From a virus: DNA of 32,598 nt. The notes beneath the pieces were generated by a model. That model ran no database searches and was not told the origin of the DNA. It saw only the letters and a program-made list of their open reading frames with translations. Location: positions 1-32,598 of the IMG/VR virus record IMGVR_UViG_3300031553_000021; one strand, given 5' to 3'. The position numbers and the translations under genes are program-made. Shown one piece after another: positions 3,437 to 32,598 of this stretch (positions within the stretch are counted from its first letter, which is position 1; each line of letters begins with the position of its first letter).

Positions 3437-3445
3437 TGATGGGGG

Positions 3446-3754
3446 TTAGGCAACATACTTAGTGATTAACTCTAATATAATGCCCTGCATCGATTTGTTT
3501 TCTTGTGCTGCTTTGATTTTAAGGGCTTGGCGAATAGATAAGGGTACAATCCGGATTATGATTGCAGACTCTTTTTCGTCACCTTCCTCCTTGTGGGTTT
3601 TGGCGGCCCAGTCCTGGGGGCAGCTCATGATTGATGCTCCAACTCGCAAGGCATATACGCCCGCGGTCGACAAACAAACATTGCCATATACCCCGGCCTG
3701 GTGTTTGGCCGGGTGCTCATACAAGCCTATCGATTTCCATTTGTCGTGTGCCAT
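3446..3754 (-). CDS. Small protein with C-terminal ribbon-helix-helix-like domain
   Basis: A protein of 102 residues. The last 40 residues (ESAIIIRIVPLSIRQALKI onward, then SMQGIILELITKYVA) have the strand-helix-helix pattern of Arc/MetJ ribbon-helix-helix DNA-binding proteins. The N-terminal 60 residues are not recognised. I use the ATG at 3754, which has AAAGGA nine bases upstream. An ATG at 3817 overlapping the upstream gene is the alternative. It is the second gene of a leftward pair with its own promoter and terminator, so it may autoregulate the pair. Toxin-antitoxin or moron function is possible but not shown. Confidence 0.6.
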   Translation of the reverse strand: MAHDKWKSIGLYEHPAKHQAGVYGNVCLSTAGVYALRVGASIMSCPQDWAAKTHKEEGDEKESAIIIRIVPLSIRQALKIKAAQENKSMQGIILELITKYVA

Positions 3755-3800
3755 GACATTAAGTCCTTTCCCGCGTGTCGGATGCGCGGCCCCCAGTGAA

Positions 3801-4148
3801 TTAATATATTGTATCATCTCTATCCATCTCTTCGGTGAGCGTGAGGCCTCTAGGGCTTCTCCACTCGTTAATATGGACGTCCGTATTTATAGGGGCGGGT
3901 GGGGGGGCTGCTCCAAATTTACCGTTAATTTTGGCGTCAGCTATCAGGGCATCACAATCGATACCGTCTAGCATACCACAATCACACCGCCCACCCATCT
4001 TGGTGACTTGGCTGCAACCATCAGCATGCTTGCCGAGCGGGGCACACATGCCATATTGCGTATCAACACTAATCCTGCGACCATCATCTATAATAGCGAT
4101 TGTCTCGTTGTATTGTCCGGTCATTGTGTGCTCGTATTTAATTTCCAT
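3801..4148 (-). CDS. Hypothetical protein, first gene of leftward pair
   Basis: A protein of 115 residues that I do not recognise. It has a cysteine cluster in its middle (YGMCAPLG, ADGCSQ and GRCDCGMLDGIDC), which could bind a metal. The start at 4148 follows AAGGAG by a few bases and lies behind a clear promoter. Codons further upstream in frame fall within the promoter and are not coding. It is followed by the ribbon-helix-helix gene. The same promoter and leader type drives the first gene of the two leftward pairs in the cassette array. Confidence 0.6.
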   Translation of the reverse strand: MEIKYEHTMTGQYNETIAIIDDGRRISVDTQYGMCAPLGKHADGCSQVTKMGGRCDCGMLDGIDCDALIADAKINGKFGAAPPPAPINTDVHINEWRSPRGLTLTEEMDRDDTIY

Positions 4149-4222: not shown

Positions 4223-4302
4223 GAAAAAAATGCACTTTTTTTTAAAAAAGTGAAAAAAGATTGCAGTGATTTCAATAGGCTACAAAGGGGTAAAAAATAA
4301 TT
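4215..4302. repeat. AT-rich leader repeat, copy 1
   Basis: The stretch upstream of the promoter (GTCAAGAAAAAAATGCA, then T- and A-runs, ending GTAAAAAATAATT) is closely matched at 5996-6085 and in part at 6691-6735. Each copy sits directly behind a leftward promoter. It may carry an UP-element or a transcription-blocking A/T tract. It marks the three leftward units as related although their genes differ. Confidence 0.6.
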
Positions 4303-4316
4303 GATGATTACAATGA

Positions 4317-4331
4317 TTACAATGATTGTAA
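4317..4331. promoter_or_regulatory. Operator-like palindrome TTACAA-TGA-TTGTAA
   Basis: A perfect six-base dyad with a three-base centre, in a stretch where ATTACAATG is also repeated. It lies between the leftward promoter and the rightward gene starting at 4369. A related TTGTAA also lies in the promoter at 4195-4222. It is a plausible repressor site for divergent control. No binding protein can be named. Confidence 0.4.
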
Positions 4332-4368
4332 CAAAGCACAGACATCTAATAAAAGTAGGGGTCTATAA

Positions 4369-4665
4369 GTGATTGATATTGTTGATAAAATAAAGGCAGG
4401 AAAAAAGATCGAGGCAAAGAATGGGCATTTTGAGCAAAAAGCCCATAATATCAATAATATCAATAACTTACATAAGGACATGGAGCGTTTTAAAAAAATC
4501 ACAGGTAGGAATACAAAGGCCCCTCAACGATCGTTGATTGTGGGGCAAATATGGGACTCCATAAAAATTAAAGAAGGTTCACTGTTTAAGGTTCACCGTT
4601 CAAAGCCCTTCGACTCCGCTCAAGGCCATGAGCATGTCGAATGGGTTAAAACCGTGAACCTCTGA
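4369..4665 (+). CDS. Hypothetical phage protein with repeat-derived C-terminus
   Basis: A protein of 98 residues starting at GTG, with TAGGGG about eight bases upstream. Residues 1-68 look like a normal, lysine-rich soluble phage protein. From about residue 69 the frame runs into an intergenic repeat: the tail FKVHRSKPFDSAQGHEHVEW is the translation of a genome-wide repeat family, not a conserved domain. The original stop was probably lost. Function is unknown. Confidence 0.45.
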   Translation: MIDIVDKIKAGKKIEAKNGHFEQKAHNINNINNLHKDMERFKKITGRNTKAPQRSLIVGQIWDSIKIKEGSLFKVHRSKPFDSAQGHEHVEWVKTVNL

Positions 4666-4723: not shown

Positions 4724-5395
4724 ATGAAAATCGAAGACATGGGCATAGACCCGCACACAGGCGAGCATACCTGGGAGCTGACAAAGGCGGAGGCATCGAT
4801 GATGGCGGCTCTTTTGCAACACCATATGGAGAATAGGATTTCTGCAGAGGAGCTGGCGGTGCAATGGCGAGAGCGCATCGGGTACCTGAGACCCTCGTAT
4901 AATGAGTACCAGCGACGAATTGAGATATGGAAGCGGGAGGTGCGATCTATGGTGAATCATCTGGTGATCGATCACGACCAGCCGATCTTGAGCGCGGCCG
5001 GGCCCGGCGGGGGATACTGGATTGAGGAGAATGAGGCAGAGGCCGATGTGTTCTACGAGACCTTCAGGCGCCGGGCCATGACCGGTCTCACCAAGGCGGC
5101 GAGAGGCAAACAGGCCGTGCTGGCAGATATGGTCAAGCAGCTCACATTCGAGTTTGAGGATCTCAAAATGCCGAGACCTGCCCTGGCGGCAAAGATCAGA
5201 CCCGGAATGGACTCAGCGCCGGTGGTGATGGTTTCGACCTTCCTCGATAAAATGACAAAGGAGCCTGAAAAGTATGCCAATGAGCTGAAACTTTTGCGTG
5301 ACAAATTCGGGAAAGTATTGTTACCTAAAGAGATGTTCGGGGAGATCCAGGAGCTGTCACATAAATTGAGCGGACTCCTTGAAAAAGTGGCATAA
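4724..5395 (+). CDS. Phage winged-helix-like replication/regulatory protein
   Basis: A protein of 223 residues. Residues 40-110 contain a stretch seen in phage proteins next to RusA: SMVNHLVIDHDQPILSAAG, then GGYWIEENEAEADVFYETFR and RRAMTGL. This fits a small winged-helix domain, in which an N-terminal helix is followed by a beta hairpin with GGGYW. The C-terminal half is helical, predicted coiled coil, rich in Lys, Glu and Leu. It may be a replication or regulatory DNA-binding protein. The ATG at 4724 follows AAAGGAGG supplied by the repeat. It is the last rightward gene before the cassette array. Confidence 0.55.
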   Translation: MKIEDMGIDPHTGEHTWELTKAEASMMAALLQHHMENRISAEELAVQWRERIGYLRPSYNEYQRRIEIWKREVRSMVNHLVIDHDQPILSAAGPGGGYWIEENEAEADVFYETFRRRAMTGLTKAARGKQAVLADMVKQLTFEFEDLKMPRPALAAKIRPGMDSAPVVMVSTFLDKMTKEPEKYANELKLLRDKFGKVLLPKEMFGEIQELSHKLSGLLEKVA

Positions 5396-5422: not shown

Positions 5423-5496
5423 TAATATACAGAATATTTTCTGGTTAATACTATGCGTTAATATACAGATTCTTTCCTGCTTAATACTATGCGTTA
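5423..5496. repeat. 36-bp tandem direct repeat at the start of the cassette array
   Basis: Two 38-base units with 36-base period (5423-5460 and 5459-5496) both begin TAATATACAGA and end TTAATACTATGCGTTA. They differ at a few central positions. The second unit runs straight into GTTAGGC at 5493-5499, which is a core crossover box and the left edge of the first cassette. Repeated sites next to a single GTTRRRY core recall an integron attI, or a secondary insertion site. That is inference. Confidence 0.6.
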
Positions 5497-5673
5497 GGCC
5501 GCTTTTTTGGGACGGCCAGGTTTTCGAGAGGAAACTAATTTGAGATCAGATTTTAAAATAATCCAGTCCCTGCCGACCTTGACGGCCGGTAGGCGACCGG
5601 ATTTGATAATGGCAAGCACCCGACGTGGGGAGACGCCGAGTGCTTTGGCGGCTTGGGTGGAATTAACAATCAT
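5494..5673 (-). CDS. Excisionase-like helix-turn-helix protein, copy A
   Basis: A protein of 59 residues. STQAAKALGVSPRRVLAI, then KSGRLPAVKVGRDWII, is the compact MerR/excisionase helix-turn-helix with wing, which binds DNA. A basic tail ends PGRPKKAA. I use the ATG at 5673, overlapping the end of the upstream gene with GGGGA before it. A longer upstream frame lies over that gene. Its stop codon TAA is TTA at 5494-5496 on the plus strand, inside the GTTAGGC core box. About 117 bases (5540-5656) are identical to the copy at 6208-6324. It may be a regulator of the pair or an excision accessory factor. Confidence 0.75.
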   Translation of the reverse strand: MIVNSTQAAKALGVSPRRVLAIIKSGRLPAVKVGRDWIILKSDLKLVSSRKPGRPKKAA

Positions 5674-5941
5674 AATAATCCCCAGCATCTGGAGCATTAT
5701 GATTAAAAGTTCCATCCTTTTTCCGTGGGGTAAGATCAAAATCAGCATCAGAACGGATGTTAAAATGTTTTTCACGAAACTGGTCAAGAGCAATATGCTG
5801 AGATCGGGGGACAATCCAAAATCGATTAATTCTATCCCATCTCGCTCCAGGTATTGTTCTGATATCATCAACAGCCTCTTTCCGATATGGGAAAATAACT
5901 CGAAAATTTCCATTTTCATCTTCCTTGATTGTTATATGCAT
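5663..5941 (-). CDS. HARP-like small protein
   Basis: A protein of 92 residues. It begins MHITIKEDENGNFRVIFPYR, and the segment IPGARWDRINRFWIVP matches the core of HARP-type domains (as at the N-terminus of SMARCAL1-like annealing helicases and in small stand-alone proteins), which bind forked DNA. No helicase follows here. A strong GGAGG precedes the ATG at 5941. A perfect-spacing promoter lies 34 bases further on. It is the first gene of the leftward pair in cassette A and is followed, overlapping, by the helix-turn-helix gene. Function in the cassette is unknown. Confidence 0.65.
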   Translation of the reverse strand: MHITIKEDENGNFRVIFPYRKEAVDDIRTIPGARWDRINRFWIVPRSQHIALDQFREKHFNIRSDADFDLTPRKKDGTFNHNAPDAGDYYDC

Positions 5942-5974
5942 TTTTTCCTCCTTTTTGATTGTTTGTTTGATTAT

Positions 5975-6003
5975 AATATACACCATGCGGACTAGTTTGT
6001 CAA
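5975..6003 (-). promoter_or_regulatory. Sigma70-type promoter of cassette A
   Basis: Minus strand TTGACA (6003-5998), 17-base spacer, TATATT (5980-5975). It drives the HARP-like gene from inside the cassette. The hexamers and flanks are nearly identical to the copy at 6670-6698. Reverse-oriented cassette genes with their own promoter are typical of sedentary integrons. Confidence 0.85.
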
Positions 6004-6085
6004 GAAAAAAATGCATGTTTTTTAAAAAAAATGAAAAAAACATTGTAATAATATCAACCACTTACAAGGTGCTAAAAAATAATTT
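5996..6085. repeat. AT-rich leader repeat, copy 2
   Basis: Matches the leader at 4215-4302, including GTCAAGAAAAAAATGCA and the closing CTAAAAAATAATT. It lies between the cassette A promoter and attC1. Confidence 0.6.
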
Positions 6086-6090
6086 AAAGC

Positions 6091-6164
6091 GGCCTAACAA
6101 AAGCATTCACTCTGACCTGTCAGGGGCTTCGCCCCTTCCAGGCAGGTGATGCTTAACGTTAGCC
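6091..6164 (+). repeat. attC site 1 (integron cassette recombination site)
   Basis: Left core GCCTAAC (6092-6098) and right core GTTAGCC (6158-6164). Inside them AAGCATTCAC pairs with GTGATGCTT with one extra unpaired base, the asymmetry used by integron integrases to choose the strand. A central AGGGGC-TTC-GCCCCT hairpin completes the cruciform. The stop codon of the leftward gene ending at 6159 lies in the right core. Confidence 0.85.
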
Positions 6165-6341
6165 TTTCTTCTTCGGGGGGCGACCGGGGACACGAATGGA
6201 AACTTTTTTGAGATCAGATTTTAAAATAATCCAGTCCCTGCCGACCTTGACGGCCGGTAGGCGACCGGATTTGATAATGGCAAGCACCCGACGTGGGGAG
6301 ACGCCGAGTGCTTTGGCGGCTTGGCATGAATTAAGAATCAT
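6159..6341 (-). CDS. Excisionase-like helix-turn-helix protein, copy B
   Basis: A protein of 60 residues. Its core (QAAKALGVSPRRVLAI onward) is encoded by DNA identical to copy A over about 117 bases. The N-terminal seven residues and the tail (VSIRVPGRPPKKKG) differ. I use the ATG at 6341, which overlaps the end of the upstream gene as in copy A. Its ribosome site is weak, so coupling is likely. TAA is formed by TTA inside the attC1 right core, as in copy A. Role: DNA-binding regulator or excision factor, inferred from the fold. Confidence 0.7.
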   Translation of the reverse strand: MILNSCQAAKALGVSPRRVLAIIKSGRLPAVKVGRDWIILKSDLKKVSIRVPGRPPKKKG

Positions 6342-6636
6342 CAGAAGGGTATCCGATTGTGGCTGATTTTTCATATATCTCATCTTTTCGGTATGCAGTA
6401 TATGGCCCATTACCAACCAGAACGATTATCTCCGGGTCTGATTCAGATTCAATAAGATACCAATCATTATTTGCGCTGGAGAACCATTCAGACAGTGAGA
6501 TTTCTTTTTCAGGACAATCTGATTGTTTTTTTGTGCCGAAATCAGTATACTGGTCGTGGGCATACTCGATTAAATCTTCAATCCCCTCTAATCCATTTTC
6601 AATAGTCTGCTCTTTCGCCCATATTGTTGTTTTCAT
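6331..6636 (-). CDS. Hypothetical acidic protein of cassette B
   Basis: A protein of 101 residues, strongly acidic, beginning MKTTIWAKEQTIENGLEGIE and ending IGYPSDDS. I recognise no family. The start at 6636 follows GGAGG and the same promoter type as cassette A. It takes the position occupied by the HARP-like gene in cassette A, with an unrelated sequence, while the following helix-turn-helix gene is conserved. This suggests exchange of the first gene of the pair. An acidic DNA-mimic or antitoxin-like role is possible but unsupported. Confidence 0.6.
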   Translation of the reverse strand: MKTTIWAKEQTIENGLEGIEDLIEYAHDQYTDFGTKKQSDCPEKEISLSEWFSSANNDWYLIESESDPEIIVLVGNGPYTAYRKDEIYEKSATIGYPSDDS

Positions 6637-6669
6637 GTTTTCCTCCTTTTTGATTGTTTGTTTGATTAT

Positions 6670-6698
6670 AATATACACCATGCGGAATAGTTTGTCAA
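6670..6698 (-). promoter_or_regulatory. Sigma70-type promoter of cassette B
   Basis: Minus strand TTGACA (6698-6693), 17-base spacer, TATATT (6675-6670). The region from this promoter to the start codon is almost identical to that of cassette A. Confidence 0.85.
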
Positions 6699-6735
6699 GT
6701 GTTTTTTTAATATTTTTTCACTTTTTTTCAATAAA
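6691..6735. repeat. AT-rich leader repeat, copy 3 (partial)
   Basis: Shares TTTGTCAAG and the following T/A runs with the copies at 4215 and 5996 but is shorter and more diverged. It lies behind the cassette B promoter. Confidence 0.4.
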
Positions 6736-6786
6736 TCGTAATTTAGCAGGTAAATCAACGGATTGGGCTATTTGGCAAGATAATTC

Positions 6787-6844
6787 GCCTAACAAAAGCA
6801 TGCACTCGACCTGCTCCGCAGGCGAGTGATGCTTGGCGTTATGA
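6787..6844 (+). repeat. attC site 2 (integron cassette recombination site)
   Basis: The clearest site of the set, 58 bases long. Left core GCCTAAC, right core GTTATGA. AAGCATGCACTCG pairs with CGAGTGATGCTT except for one extrahelical G, exactly as in integron attC sites. The tip is a CCTGC-TCC-GCAGG hairpin. The next cassette gene starts 11 bases after the site. Confidence 0.9.
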
Positions 6845-6854
6845 GGTGAAATAT

Positions 6855-7169
6855 ATGCGAGACACGGGCGTACCAGATAAAAATGGAACAATAATACATG
6901 AGGGAGATATTGTCGAAGGCTGGTGTAATTCTCACAAATTAAAAGGACAAGTTTTTTATAACGGATCATCTTTTAAAATACATGAATTATATAGATGGGG
7001 TAATGGGACGTGGATCAAATCAGGCGATCTAAATGAATTTGAATATTACGGATTACAGTTGGATTATCACAAGAACGGAAAATCAGACTATGAGATTGTT
7101 GGGAATATTTCTCATAACAAATCACTGAACTCAGACCTGATTCAGGCTACGCCTGATCAGGCTGGTTAG
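6855..7169 (+). CDS. YopX-family protein (cassette C)
   Basis: A protein of 104 residues. DKNGTIIHEGDIVEG near the N-terminus and YEIVGNI near residue 84 are the two hallmarks of the YopX family, small beta-rich phage proteins of unknown function. GAGGTG lies six bases before the ATG at 6855. The last 58 bases run into attC3, so the tail SLNSDLIQATPDQAG is partly the translation of the recombination site, as in many integron cassettes. Confidence 0.8.
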   Translation: MRDTGVPDKNGTIIHEGDIVEGWCNSHKLKGQVFYNGSSFKIHELYRWGNGTWIKSGDLNEFEYYGLQLDYHKNGKSDYEIVGNISHNKSLNSDLIQATPDQAG

Positions 7170-7183
7170 TTCAGGCGTTATCT
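7112..7183 (+). repeat. attC site 3
   Basis: Left core TCATAAC, right core GTTATCT. CTGAACT pairs with AGTTCAG. An inner CCTGATTCAGGC pairs with GCCTGATCAGG, again with one unpaired base, around a TAC loop. It lies in the same orientation as the other sites, overlaps the YopX gene end and is followed by the next cassette gene 14 bases later. Confidence 0.8.
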
Positions 7184-7196
7184 GTAAGGAGTAAAT

Positions 7197-7391
7197 ATGC
7201 CAATACCAGAATCATGGGAAGTTGAAATCAGGATGTCCGGTGAAACAATATTAACAATAGGGTCGTGGGGGCTTTCTGGAATCGAAAACATTTCAGATCA
7301 TGCCGATTTAGTGAGGCATTGCGCTGATCATCTTAATGCTTTCATCGGTGCAGAAGAAACAGATAACCAGGCCCCTGAAGCCGACCACTAA
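7197..7391 (+). CDS. Small hypothetical protein (cassette D)
   Basis: A protein of 64 residues, MPIPESWEVEIRMSGETILT onward, with no family I know. AAGGAG precedes the ATG. The C-terminus overlaps attC4. Length and placement between two attC sites make it a typical integron cassette gene. The beta-rich start and helical His/Cys segment (LVRHCADHLNAF) may form a small globular domain. Confidence 0.65.
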   Translation: MPIPESWEVEIRMSGETILTIGSWGLSGIENISDHADLVRHCADHLNAFIGAEETDNQAPEADH

Positions 7392-7421
7392 GAAGCGGCG
7401 GCTTATTACCAAGCGTTAGCC
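7361..7421 (+). repeat. attC site 4
   Basis: Left core AGATAAC, right core GTTAGCC. AAGCCG pairs with CGGCTT in the inner part. The outer pairing is weaker than in sites 1-3 and 5. Orientation and spacing fit the array. Confidence 0.65.
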
Positions 7422-7434
7422 CCTTGGAGGTTTT

Positions 7435-7605
7435 ATGAGATTTACACTAAAGCAAGCTCAAGATTTAGTAGCTTTTTTCGGTGGTGATGAAGAAACCGAA
7501 ATTACTGTAGTAGAAGTTGGAAGTGATGAACCAAGTCATTCAGGCTCAGGATTATATGCCTATCTCACAGAATATCCAGATGAAGGGTCAATGTTGTTGG
7601 GTTAA
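7435..7605 (+). CDS. 56-residue hypothetical protein (cassette E)
   Basis: An acidic protein starting MRFTLKQAQDLVAFFGGDEE and ending DEGSMLLG. I do not recognise it. TTGGAGG lies eight bases before the ATG at 7435. Its stop TAA is part of the left core (GGTTAAC) of attC5, and the gene starts 14 bases after attC4. It fills the whole cassette, which supports it being real despite its size. Confidence 0.6.
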   Translation: MRFTLKQAQDLVAFFGGDEETEITVVEVGSDEPSHSGSGLYAYLTEYPDEGSMLLG

Positions 7606-7660
7606 CAAGAGCATGCACTCGACCCTCGGGGACTCGGGTGTGTGATGCTTGGCGTTATAT
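7600..7660 (+). repeat. attC site 5
   Basis: Left core GGTTAAC, right core GTTATAT. AGCATGCAC pairs with GTGATGCT except for one extrahelical G, as in attC2. ACCC and GGGT form the inner arm. It is the last site of the array. Confidence 0.85.
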
Positions 7661-8310: not shown

Positions 8311-8883
8311 ATGAAGCCTTTCCGAATTTTTATCGATGCGGGACACGGCGGCCCATCAGACAATGGCGCGAGCTGGGGTGAGAAATTTGACTACGTCGAG
8401 GAGGATGACCTGAATCTTATTATCGCGTTTCTTCTCCGCTATGAGCTGCTCCTTGCGGATTTCGATGTGCGGATGAGCCGGGAGAAAGACGAGCCGGTCA
8501 CCCTGGGGCGGAGGGTGGCGCTGGCCAATTACTGGCCTGCGGATATCTTTGTCTCCATCCATGCCGACGCCTTTCACAAAATTACCGCCAAAGGGATCTC
8601 AACACATATCTATACCCATCCCTCGCAGAATTCATTAATACTTGCCGCCTGGATCCAGGGCGGGCTTATCAAAAAATTTATCGATCATACAAATCGGGGC
8701 TTGAAAAAATCCGATTTTTACGTTTTGCATCATACCGCCATGCCGGCGGTCTTGGTGGAGTGCGAGTTTATCAGTAATCCTGAAACCAGGCGGTTTTTAA
8801 AGGAGCCCGAGCATCAGATAGAGATCGCCAGGGCCATCGGCGGAGGGATAAAGAAATATTTAGCCACGGATTCACACAGATAA
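8311..8883 (+). CDS. Endolysin: N-acetylmuramoyl-L-alanine amidase (Amidase_3)
   Basis: A protein of 190 residues that cuts the bond between N-acetylmuramic acid and L-alanine in peptidoglycan to release phage. DAGHGG (His 12) and the glutamate in EEDDLNL (about residue 31) are zinc ligands. FVSIHADA (about residue 90) gives the third ligand. LVECEFISN (about residue 150) carries the catalytic Glu. There is no signal peptide, so a holin or similar is needed. The last residues LATDSHR are read from an intergenic repeat beginning at 8862. The native end was about KKYL. Confidence 0.92.
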   Translation: MKPFRIFIDAGHGGPSDNGASWGEKFDYVEEDDLNLIIAFLLRYELLLADFDVRMSREKDEPVTLGRRVALANYWPADIFVSIHADAFHKITAKGISTHIYTHPSQNSLILAAWIQGGLIKKFIDHTNRGLKKSDFYVLHHTAMPAVLVECEFISNPETRRFLKEPEHQIEIARAIGGGIKKYLATDSHR

Positions 8884-29842: not shown

Positions 29843-30859
29843 ATGAGCTTATTAGACTTTTCATTATGGGACAACTACAAACACGCTATCGAGGCGGTGA
29901 GCGGCGGCAAAAACACCGTTATTTTCGATGACCAGAACCTGCCATCTGTGATGGTGCGGTTCCCGCGCATTAACTTCGCCGATGTGGGTCTCGCCAAGCC
30001 AGGAGGCGCCCCTGCAGGGGAATATGGCGAGGCGATGCCGGCATTTCGCTGCGATGGCGCCTTCGGGGAGACGGGCCTGGTGCCATGTATTTACGTCGGA
30101 AAATATCAGGCGTATGGATATGGCGACCGCGCCTATAGTCTGCCATTCAAAGACCCGAAAAACACCATAGATTTTGATGATTCCAAAACATACTGCACCA
30201 ACAAGGGCACAGGCTGGCATCTCATGACCAATGCTGAATGGGCGGCAATCGCCCAGTGGTCCCGGGAAAACGGCACAATGCCTCGAGGAGACAACAATTA
30301 TCTTGAAGACATCGCCGAGCCACATGAAAGCGCCATCCCAACCCAGGCAGGCATCGTAAAGGGAACCTCAGGCACAGCCCGATCGTACACCGGCAGCGGC
30401 CCGGATGCCTGGAACCACGATCATGGACCCTTTGGCATCGCCGATCTCAATGGCAATGTTTGGGAATGGACAGACGGTCTGAAAATATTGGCAGGCGTGG
30501 CAAAAATTATGCCCGACAAAGACGGCACCGATCCTGGAAATGATTTCGGAACCATCGAGGCATCTTGGATTGATACAACAGTGGATATCACAAATGGCCT
30601 GACAACTGGGCATAAAATTTTAACCCTCAAAGTGGGCGATAACTGGACGGGCCTTGCCATCCCCGCAACGAGTGATGTCACCGGATCAGCAACCTATGGG
30701 AACGATGGCTTCTCGTTCACCGCCACTGATGAGCGGGTGGCCGGTCGTGGCGGCAATTGGTACAATGTCGCGGGTGCGGGCGTGTTTGCGTTGAATCTGA
30801 ATGCTCTGCGTTCGGTTCCGGACACGACCATCGGCTTCCGTCCCGCTTACGTTGAGTAA
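29843..30859 (+). CDS. DGR-type variable protein (C-type lectin/FGE fold), putative receptor binder
   Basis: A protein of 338 residues. Residues 90-290 show formylglycine-enzyme-type lectin features (GTGWHLMTNAEWAAIAQWSR, IADLNGNVWEWTDGLK). The end RGGNWYNVAGAGVFALNLNA then TIGFRPAYVE is the hallmark C-terminus of proteins varied by diversity-generating retroelements, in which adenine-encoded positions of a template are randomised in the variable repeat. It would lie at the tip of a tail fibre and bind the host surface. It follows the tail-tip genes. AGGAGG precedes the ATG. Confidence 0.85.
   Translation: MSLLDFSLWDNYKHAIEAVSGGKNTVIFDDQNLPSVMVRFPRINFADVGLAKPGGAPAGEYGEAMPAFRCDGAFGETGLVPCIYVGKYQAYGYGDRAYSLPFKDPKNTIDFDDSKTYCTNKGTGWHLMTNAEWAAIAQWSRENGTMPRGDNNYLEDIAEPHESAIPTQAGIVKGTSGTARSYTGSGPDAWNHDHGPFGIADLNGNVWEWTDGLKILAGVAKIMPDKDGTDPGNDFGTIEASWIDTTVDITNGLTTGHKILTLKVGDNWTGLAIPATSDVTGSATYGNDGFSFTATDERVAGRGGNWYNVAGAGVFALNLNALRSVPDTTIGFRPAYVE
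30742..30853 (+). other. Putative DGR variable repeat (VR)
   Basis: Codes for RGGNW to GFRPAY. Positions that are AAC/AAT-coded (Asn, Ser) in usual templates are here TAC, GTC, GCG, GCT, CTG, GTT, CCG, GAC, in agreement with past A-to-N mutagenesis, while GVFALNLN and IGFRPA are kept. No template copy is found in the window. Confidence 0.7.
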
Positions 30860-31315: not shown

Positions 31316-31344
31316 GCGCCCTGACGCAGGCTGACCTTGGTTTG

Positions 31345-31390
31345 TCGCATTTTTCGATCAAACAATTCGCATTTTTCGATCAAATTGACA
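31345..31390 (+). repeat. Phage right end: putative transposase-binding repeats and terminal CA
   Basis: TCGCATTTTTCGATCAAA occurs at 31345-31362 and again at 31367-31384, a period of 22 bases like the repeated transposase sites at Mu-type phage ends. TTGACA follows, ending in CA at 31389-31390. The host gene resumes exactly at 31391. The expected host-target duplication (5 bases in this group) would be GTATG. Confidence 0.75.
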
Positions 31391-32598
31391 GTATGTAGCC
31401 ATCCTTGTATGGATGTATGTATAAGGGCCCAGACAGACGCGCCCATCAATATTCCAAAGATAAAGAGGTATGCTGCTGATATGGCCCGTGAGATAGGGGT
31501 TGTTGTAGAATTTAAAAAGGCAAAAAAAAATAGCGAAAAGATTGCAGTAATAGGTGGTGGACCCAGCGGATTAGGCGCAGCTTATTATCTCAGTCTCATG
31601 GGATATAATGTGACCATATTTGAGGAATTACCAAAGCTTGGAGGAATGCTCAGGTATGGGATTCCTGCCTACAGGCTTCCACGAGATATCTTAGATGAAG
31701 AGATTAACTATATTATAGATACAGGTATAACCGTAAGGACAGGTGTAAGAGTTGGAAGAGAGATTTCAATGGAAGAGCTGCAAAAAGATTTTGATGCTAT
31801 CTTTCTCGGTATTGGCGCTCACAGGAGTCAAATCATGGGTATTCCCGGGGAGGATATAGATGGGGTTTATGGAGGAGCAGAGTTTTTGCGCCAGGTAGAA
31901 CTGGGAAATACACCGAATATTGGTAAAAAAGTAGCAGTAATCGGCGGGGGTAATACTGCAATTGATGTGGCACGGACATGCAGGAGAATGGGAGCAGATG
32001 TCACAATATTATACAGGCGAGAGCAAAAAGATATGCCTGCAAGCGCTGAAGAGATAGAAGATGGTATAGACGAAGGGATCAAGTTAAAAACATTTATGAT
32101 GCCAGGATCTATTAATAAAGACAATGGAAGGCTTAACATTACATTACATAAATGTGAGCCAGGAGAATTTGATAGAGATGGAAGAAGAACACCGGTTCCC
32201 ATACCTGATGCGGTTGTAAGGGAAGAATATGATACCATCTTTGCTGCTATCGGACAGGTTTCTGATACAAGTTTTATAAGTAGTTTCGATTTAAAAAGAG
32301 GACGGATTGAAATAGACAGGCTGACACTCAAGACAAATCTGGATAATATCTATGCTGGTGGTGATGCAGTAACCGGCCCAGCCCTGGTAGTAGATGCACT
32401 TGCAGCAGGAAAAAGGGCAGCTATCGCTATTGACAGGGATCTTTCAGCAAAAAAGGGAGGGAAACCCTATGAAGATCAGTATGATAAGATATTTATAACC
32501 ATGAAGGTGCCAGGTGATACCATTAAGCAAGATATGGCCAGGGCTCCTAAAATTTCCGCTAAGGAAAGGATCAAAGATTTCAGAGAGGTGGAACATGG
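31391..32598 (+). pseudogene. Host GltD-like NAD(P)H/FAD oxidoreductase, cut by the prophage
   Basis: The frame is open from the junction and past the right edge (over 400 residues). It starts in mid-domain: VCSHPCMDVC then NIPKIKRYAAD is the second half of the N-terminal Fe-S domain of glutamate synthase small-subunit-like proteins. FAD-binding AVIGGGPSGLGAAYYLSLMG, NAD(P)-binding VAVIGGGNTAIDVARTCRRM and YAGGDAVTGPALVVDALAAG follow. The end RIKDFREVEHG precedes a C-terminal ferredoxin part in relatives. The first Fe-S half is missing, so the gene is split at codon V. An internal ATG at 31481 could give a flavoprotein lacking the cluster. Confidence 0.85.

Follow-up and report, generated by a model that had tools for sequence, protein, structure and literature searches.

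The question raised by this locus is what kind of unit closes two neighbouring reverse genes for small helix-turn-helix (HTH) proteins exactly at integron-type core boxes inside a phage, and how such a unit would travel. The window, that is, the whole stretch of DNA analysed, is a virus record of 32.6 kb whose Mu-type portal, F-like, protease and major head and tail proteins identify it as a Mu-like prophage. Near the phage end, an FGE-sulfatase-domain protein is encoded at 29843-30859, a type that diversity-generating retroelements employ as their variable protein, and an open frame at the right end (31337-32596; similarity from about 31.4 kb) reads as a fragment of an FAD/NAD oxidoreductase of bacterial type and is probably host DNA next to the prophage. 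An array of five cassettes, two reverse (A and B) and three forward (C, D and E), lies between an early gene (4724-5395) and an amidase gene (8311-8883), with core boxes at 5493, 6158, 6838, 7177, 7415 and 7654. The features are the following.

5423-5494, no strand assigned: two 36-bp direct repeats (D8), each ending in GCGTTA; array entry point
5494-6158, minus strand: cassette A, with promoter, partner gene and HTH gene; starts at G^TTAGGC, its last base being the G of GTTAGCC
5494-5673, minus strand: HTH_17 gene A, 59 aa (Pfam HTH_17, E 8e-11); stop codon TAA formed by TTA of the core box
5663-5941, minus strand: partner gene A, 92 aa, with a weak likeness to HARP/DUF5710; 11-nt overlap with the start of the HTH gene
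5975-6003, minus strand: promoter A, TTGACA, 17-nt spacer with TCCGCATGG, TATATT
6092-6164, plus strand: attC of cassette A, R'' GCCTAAC and R' GTTAGCC; bottom-strand hairpin of -22.5 kcal/mol, z -6.8
6159-6838, minus strand: cassette B, layout as in cassette A
6159-6341, minus strand: HTH_17 gene B, 60 aa (Pfam, E 3e-11); stop codon TAA formed by TTA of the core box
6331-6636, minus strand: partner gene B, 101 aa, of no known family
6670-6698, minus strand: promoter B, the conserved cassette promoter
6787-6844, plus strand: attC of cassette B, bottom-strand hairpin with z -5.5
6839-7177, plus strand: cassette C; gene 6855-7169 YopX-like (YopX, E 9e-5); attC 7112-7183, fold z -6.6
7178-7415, plus strand: cassette D; gene 7197-7391; degenerate attC, fold z -2.3
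7416-7654, plus strand: cassette E; gene 7435-7605 with its stop in the core GGTTAAC; attC 7600-7660, fold z -2.0

Cassettes A and B both possess attC sites with R' and R'' boxes and a bottom-strand hairpin, and their folds were neither beaten nor equalled by any shuffled sequence. The attC sites of A, B and C fold far better than shuffles, those of D and E being weaker. The 36-bp repeats were rejected as an attC site (fold z -0.1), and Rfam gave no match in the window. A further reverse operon at 3446-4148 (minus strand) consists of a variable gene and a gene for an RHH (FitA-like) protein, the stop codon TAA of which lies inside a GTTAGGC box at 3445; its upstream promoter block (4236-4302) and that of cassette A are 73% alike (repeat D5). 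Because a possible remnant of an attC behind this operon, at 4322-4394, folds no better than shuffles, we did not include the operon among the cassettes.

An earlier, sequence-only reading had taken the stop codons of the two HTH genes to be made by the core boxes. This is exactly the case, with the minus-strand reading frames ending at 5494 and 6159 in the boxes GTTAGGC (5493-5499) and GTTAGCC (6158-6164); the interval given for it, 5494-6341, is too short, the full feature extending from 5494 to 6838. Its proposal that integration always supplies the gene end has to be abandoned. Comparison of empty with filled sites (see below) places the crossover at G^TTA, so that TTA belongs to the cassette, as its first three bases; it is present in the circle as well as at any target, and the HTH stop is thus independent of the target. 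The coincidence of core box and HTH stop is found in all five HTH copies, despite the differing tails KKAA, KKKG, RKAA and PKDG; since the copies are homologous, this is one inherited feature and not five independent ones. Nor is it peculiar to reverse genes, as four of seven forward cassette genes in these phages end likewise, and the detail is ordinary compactness. A core-box stop is known for ORF-11 of attI1 (PMC8876359), where the stop codon is also formed by GTTRRRY; there, the core box of the inserted cassette ends an ORF of the platform, whereas in the present case it is the cassette's own reverse gene that is closed.

The cassette nature and the mobility of the module are directly observable in a related phage. 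The contig of the IMG/VR relative L003, termed L044, was compared with empty-site contigs found by searching with the helicase adjoining the L003 cassette. Three contigs of the same phage (L043, L045 and L046) carry the uninterrupted site GATATTGGGTAG^TTAGATAACAAAAAA, i.e., G^TTAGAT, a junction that is also given as GATATTGGGTAG^TTAGATAAC; in L044, a cassette of 604 bp sits exactly at this junction, between GGGTAG and TTAGATAAC. The left flank differs from those of the empty-site contigs by 0, 1 or 4 mismatches in 1.2-1.9 kb, and the right flank is 99.7-99.8% identical over 3.6-5.4 kb. The unit, which begins with the bases TTA, comprises promoter, partner gene, HTH gene and attC, and its exact position at the empty site means that the whole module moved as one, by precise G^TT insertion with the attC as part of the unit. 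In this pair of empty and filled sites, nature provides direct evidence of phage genomes being edited by recombination of the integron type, by which phages become cassette carriers. The contig of relative L004, L017, shares the left flank of L044; here, after GATATTGGGTAG^TTAGCC, there come in turn a reversed operon containing genes for an RHH protein and a homing-type endonuclease, a variant of the HTH cassette, and TTAGATAAC. The first occupant of this site, a large, cassette-like reversed unit at 30-1452 of L017 with a third gene besides these two, is a homologue of the RHH operon of the window; its promoter end seems to be deleted and fused to the HTH cassette.

The site occupied in the window is also used elsewhere. 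Different cassette arrays are found in L030 (8719-9190) and L032 (7738-8665) at one shared backbone site after the 4724-type gene, with the junctions TAGCTG^TTAG... and TAGTTG^TTAG..., respectively, and both arrays stop at one and the same base ahead of the following backbone gene. The backbone position of the 36-bp repeats corresponds to the array entry in these two records, from which the repeats themselves are absent. One cassette of L032 encodes a Dam methyltransferase domain, and L031 and L033 have no cassette array at the site. The different arrays at one site suggest a lasting docking site for cassettes in related Mu-like phages. A search of ten records from these phages and their relatives detected no integron integrase, and the three contigs with the empty site yielded no tyrosine recombinase. 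All of these records are fragments; the integrase would presumably come from the host.

A and B have two blocks of similarity in common. For the two HTH genes, about 117 identical bases had been claimed, and the longest identical run is indeed 118 bp (5539-5656 in A, 6207-6324 in B); all 17 mismatches of the surrounding 170-bp repeat lie outside this run, for which the chance, given the run and random placement, is about 2e-10. The second block, promoter plus leader, extends over 77 bp with 94% identity, including an identical run of 49 bp that ends at the ribosome-binding site. Similarity breaks off where the first gene begins, at its start codon, and returns with the beginning of the HTH gene; between the first genes themselves (5663-5941 and 6331-6636), there is no DNA similarity. 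In L003 and L004, the partner gene is identical, and the HTH core shows nine synonymous and no nonsynonymous differences in a short tract. The suggested local recombination of the HTH block is borne out by both patterns, that is, identity of A and B over the 118 bp with divergence on both sides and the synonymous-only tract, and these mosaic copies support gene conversion or recombination between HTH copies as the probable cause. The HTH gene itself is under purifying selection (dS 0.25 and dN 0 for L003-L004; dS 0.50 and dN 0.08 for A-L018).

If the partner were the exchangeable component, relatives should retain promoter and HTH gene while the partner varies, which was the check named in the sequence-only reading. 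This is what the IMG/VR relatives L003/L004 and L018 show, with the core-box stop retained. They contribute two further unrelated first genes, MNQKQSRQSAK... (76 aa) in L003/L004 and MSRNGFETDD... (85 aa) in L018, to give four unrelated partner types in all, each overlapping the HTH gene by 4-14 nt. In L018, the -35 end of the promoter is lost; the HTH cassette at 5640-6180, in which an attC follows the HTH stop, is linked to an operon of the phage and is possibly a domesticated cassette. L015 has the promoter at a contig end. The match in L005 was rejected for its broken reading frame, and L007 and L020-L022 were rejected for not sharing the layout. A search of phages and plasmids with the HTH protein gave nothing at E 1e-5, and a search of genome contigs gave distant HTH genes only, located beside recombinases or unrelated genes.

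None of the four partner types could be assigned with confidence to a family in Pfam, NCBIfam or PADLOC, nor did they match known anti-CRISPR, defence or toxin families therein. Partner A reaches E 0.03 against Pfam HARP, which is below the cut-off, and its predicted structure (mean pLDDT 61) has the HARP domain of SMARCAL1 (4o66) as top Foldseek match at E 0.1; the structure predicted for partner B was rejected, with a pLDDT of 42. The first genes probably belong to the accessory genes of the phage and may encode factors for anti-defence or host takeover, an anti-defence function being what we infer for them. Two small overlapping genes under their own promoter, the HTH gene in second position, would likewise be expected of toxin-antitoxin cassettes in the HigBA or MqsRA order, toxin gene first and HTH antitoxin second, serving to stabilise the array or the prophage. 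Integrons commonly contain toxin-antitoxin cassettes that have their own promoters, and in Vibrio cholerae the orientation of parDE3 is reverse (PMC8876359, PMC11014356). However, the partners are related neither to one another nor to toxin families, and the HTH protein is conserved over its whole length, without a variable region for toxin binding that would match each partner, which renders this explanation unlikely.

The conserved promoter bears on the role of the HTH protein. It is kept in A, B, L003, L004 and L015; the intact HTH-cassette promoters have TTGACA-N7-CCGNATGG in common, the promoter pattern being ATGGNGTATATTATRATCAAA. The spacer pattern is in register with that of the distant HTH relatives L006 (49%) and L019 (58%), which are located at the end of phage early operons without attC and have CCGNAT in the same register. 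CCGNAT at +7 occurs in 7 of 238 TTGAC[AT] sites in 219 kb, 0.2 being expected, and all seven precede this HTH family; since the motif was noticed by eye before counting, the count is optimistic. By a similarity score over the whole spacer, which was not chosen on CCGNAT, L006 and L019 rank seventh and eighth of the 238, each within the top 1% of all 17-mers. The candidate operator is a weak palindrome in the cassettes and a clear one (TTACCG/CGGTAA) in L006 only. In published Aca systems, the inverted repeats always lie within the core promoter (PMC9410906), with which a conserved spacer in register agrees. Autoregulation of its own promoter by the HTH protein, via an operator-like spacer common to distant relatives, is supported at the level of sequence.

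An ordinary phage early operon might also have become cassette-borne together with its regulator, which would act elsewhere, e.g., on phage lysogeny genes, the partner swap being neutral drift by phage mosaicism. The resemblance of the cassette promoter blocks to the phage's own reverse promoter upstream of the RHH operon would fit this, as would the early operons of L019 and L006; yet the conserved spacer in register with the HTH gene points to self-regulation, and we regard such an origin as distinctly unlikely. It is very improbable that the HTH protein is an excisionase-like factor aiding cassette movement, as its matches to TIGR01764 'excise' and to PHROG excisionases are labels generic for HTH_17, integron integrases are not known to depend on such a factor, and the relatives in L006 and L019 stand in phage early operons without attC.

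The reading we prefer, to which we give a probability of roughly two in three, is that of a module resembling acr-aca operons, in which a variable accessory gene and an autoregulator travel together as a reverse cassette by means of a host integron integrase. Both reverse cassettes would be copies of one mobile module consisting of an operator-like promoter, a slot with an exchangeable small gene, a conserved HTH_17 regulator and a closing attC. Acting in trans on the folded attC, the host integron integrase would excise the module and insert it at G^TTRRRY-like sites, including those in phage genomes without integrase; the insertion in L044 is exact, and it is the identity of the integrase that we infer. 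Once inserted, the module would be transcribed from its own promoter, whatever its orientation, without need of a Pc promoter. The HTH protein would most likely bind the spacer between -35 and -10 and lower expression of the operon after an early burst, as Aca does on anti-CRISPR genes. To judge from the similarity boundaries, homologous recombination between the two conserved blocks, promoter and HTH, would bring in new first genes. These blocks would also provide the ribosome site, the stop codon for the first gene (usually TTAATTC, within the 5' end of the HTH gene) and, through the core box, the HTH stop. The wider notion that integron cassettes are a phage swap platform for regulated anti-defence genes, with fixed promoter, Aca-like autorepressor and exchangeable first gene, whose transfer from one phage to another, unrelated one would be the work of host integron integrases at phage GTT sites, is a tentative and as yet rather doubtful one.

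Several known systems share features with this arrangement. CALINs, i.e., attC clusters lacking an integrase, are known in phages (Qi et al. 2023, PMC9892861), and the window, itself a fragment, has five candidate attC sites and no TIGR02249 match, where at least two attC sites and no intI nearby define a CALIN. Phage attC arrays without intI and small phage-like or methyltransferase cargo, here the Dam cassette of L032, are common to both, whereas the reverse module of two genes, which has its own promoter and in which the first gene is swapped, and the natural empty/filled pair are particular to the present case. Toxin-antitoxin integron cassettes (PMC8876359, PMC11014356) likewise have their own promoter, can be reverse and consist of two overlapping genes; in contrast, the present module has no member of a toxin family, as a type II system would, and its HTH gene is conserved while the partner changes wholly. 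Cassette insertion outside integrons at non-classical attG sites is reported by Loot et al. 2024, as cited in PMC11389934 and PMC12901181. According to these citations, the likeness consists in a single cassette at a GTT-type site outside an integron, while the target here is a phage genome and the site is likened by its GTT type, not by the attG definition. Of the papers retrieved on anti-CRISPRs together with integron cassettes, none describes this arrangement, to judge by titles and abstract openings. The new part is a regulated, swappable module borne as a reverse cassette between phages.

In layout, the module resembles acr-aca operons (PMC9410906), the likeness comprising a strong early-type promoter, a variable small first gene, a conserved 60-aa HTH gene in last position and a candidate operator inside the core promoter; as with aca genes, the small HTH gene immediately follows variable small genes of the same operon, here with four unrelated partners. 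The present module differs in that HTH_17 is not among the domains tabulated for Aca families (PMC9410906), that no partner matches a known Acr, and that it takes the form of an integron cassette. It thereby connects integron cassettes with phage accessory genes under aca-like regulation, two systems that are rarely met side by side. The conserved promoter and HTH gene mark a slot whose contents can be collected as candidate anti-defence genes, just as aca genes led to acr genes.
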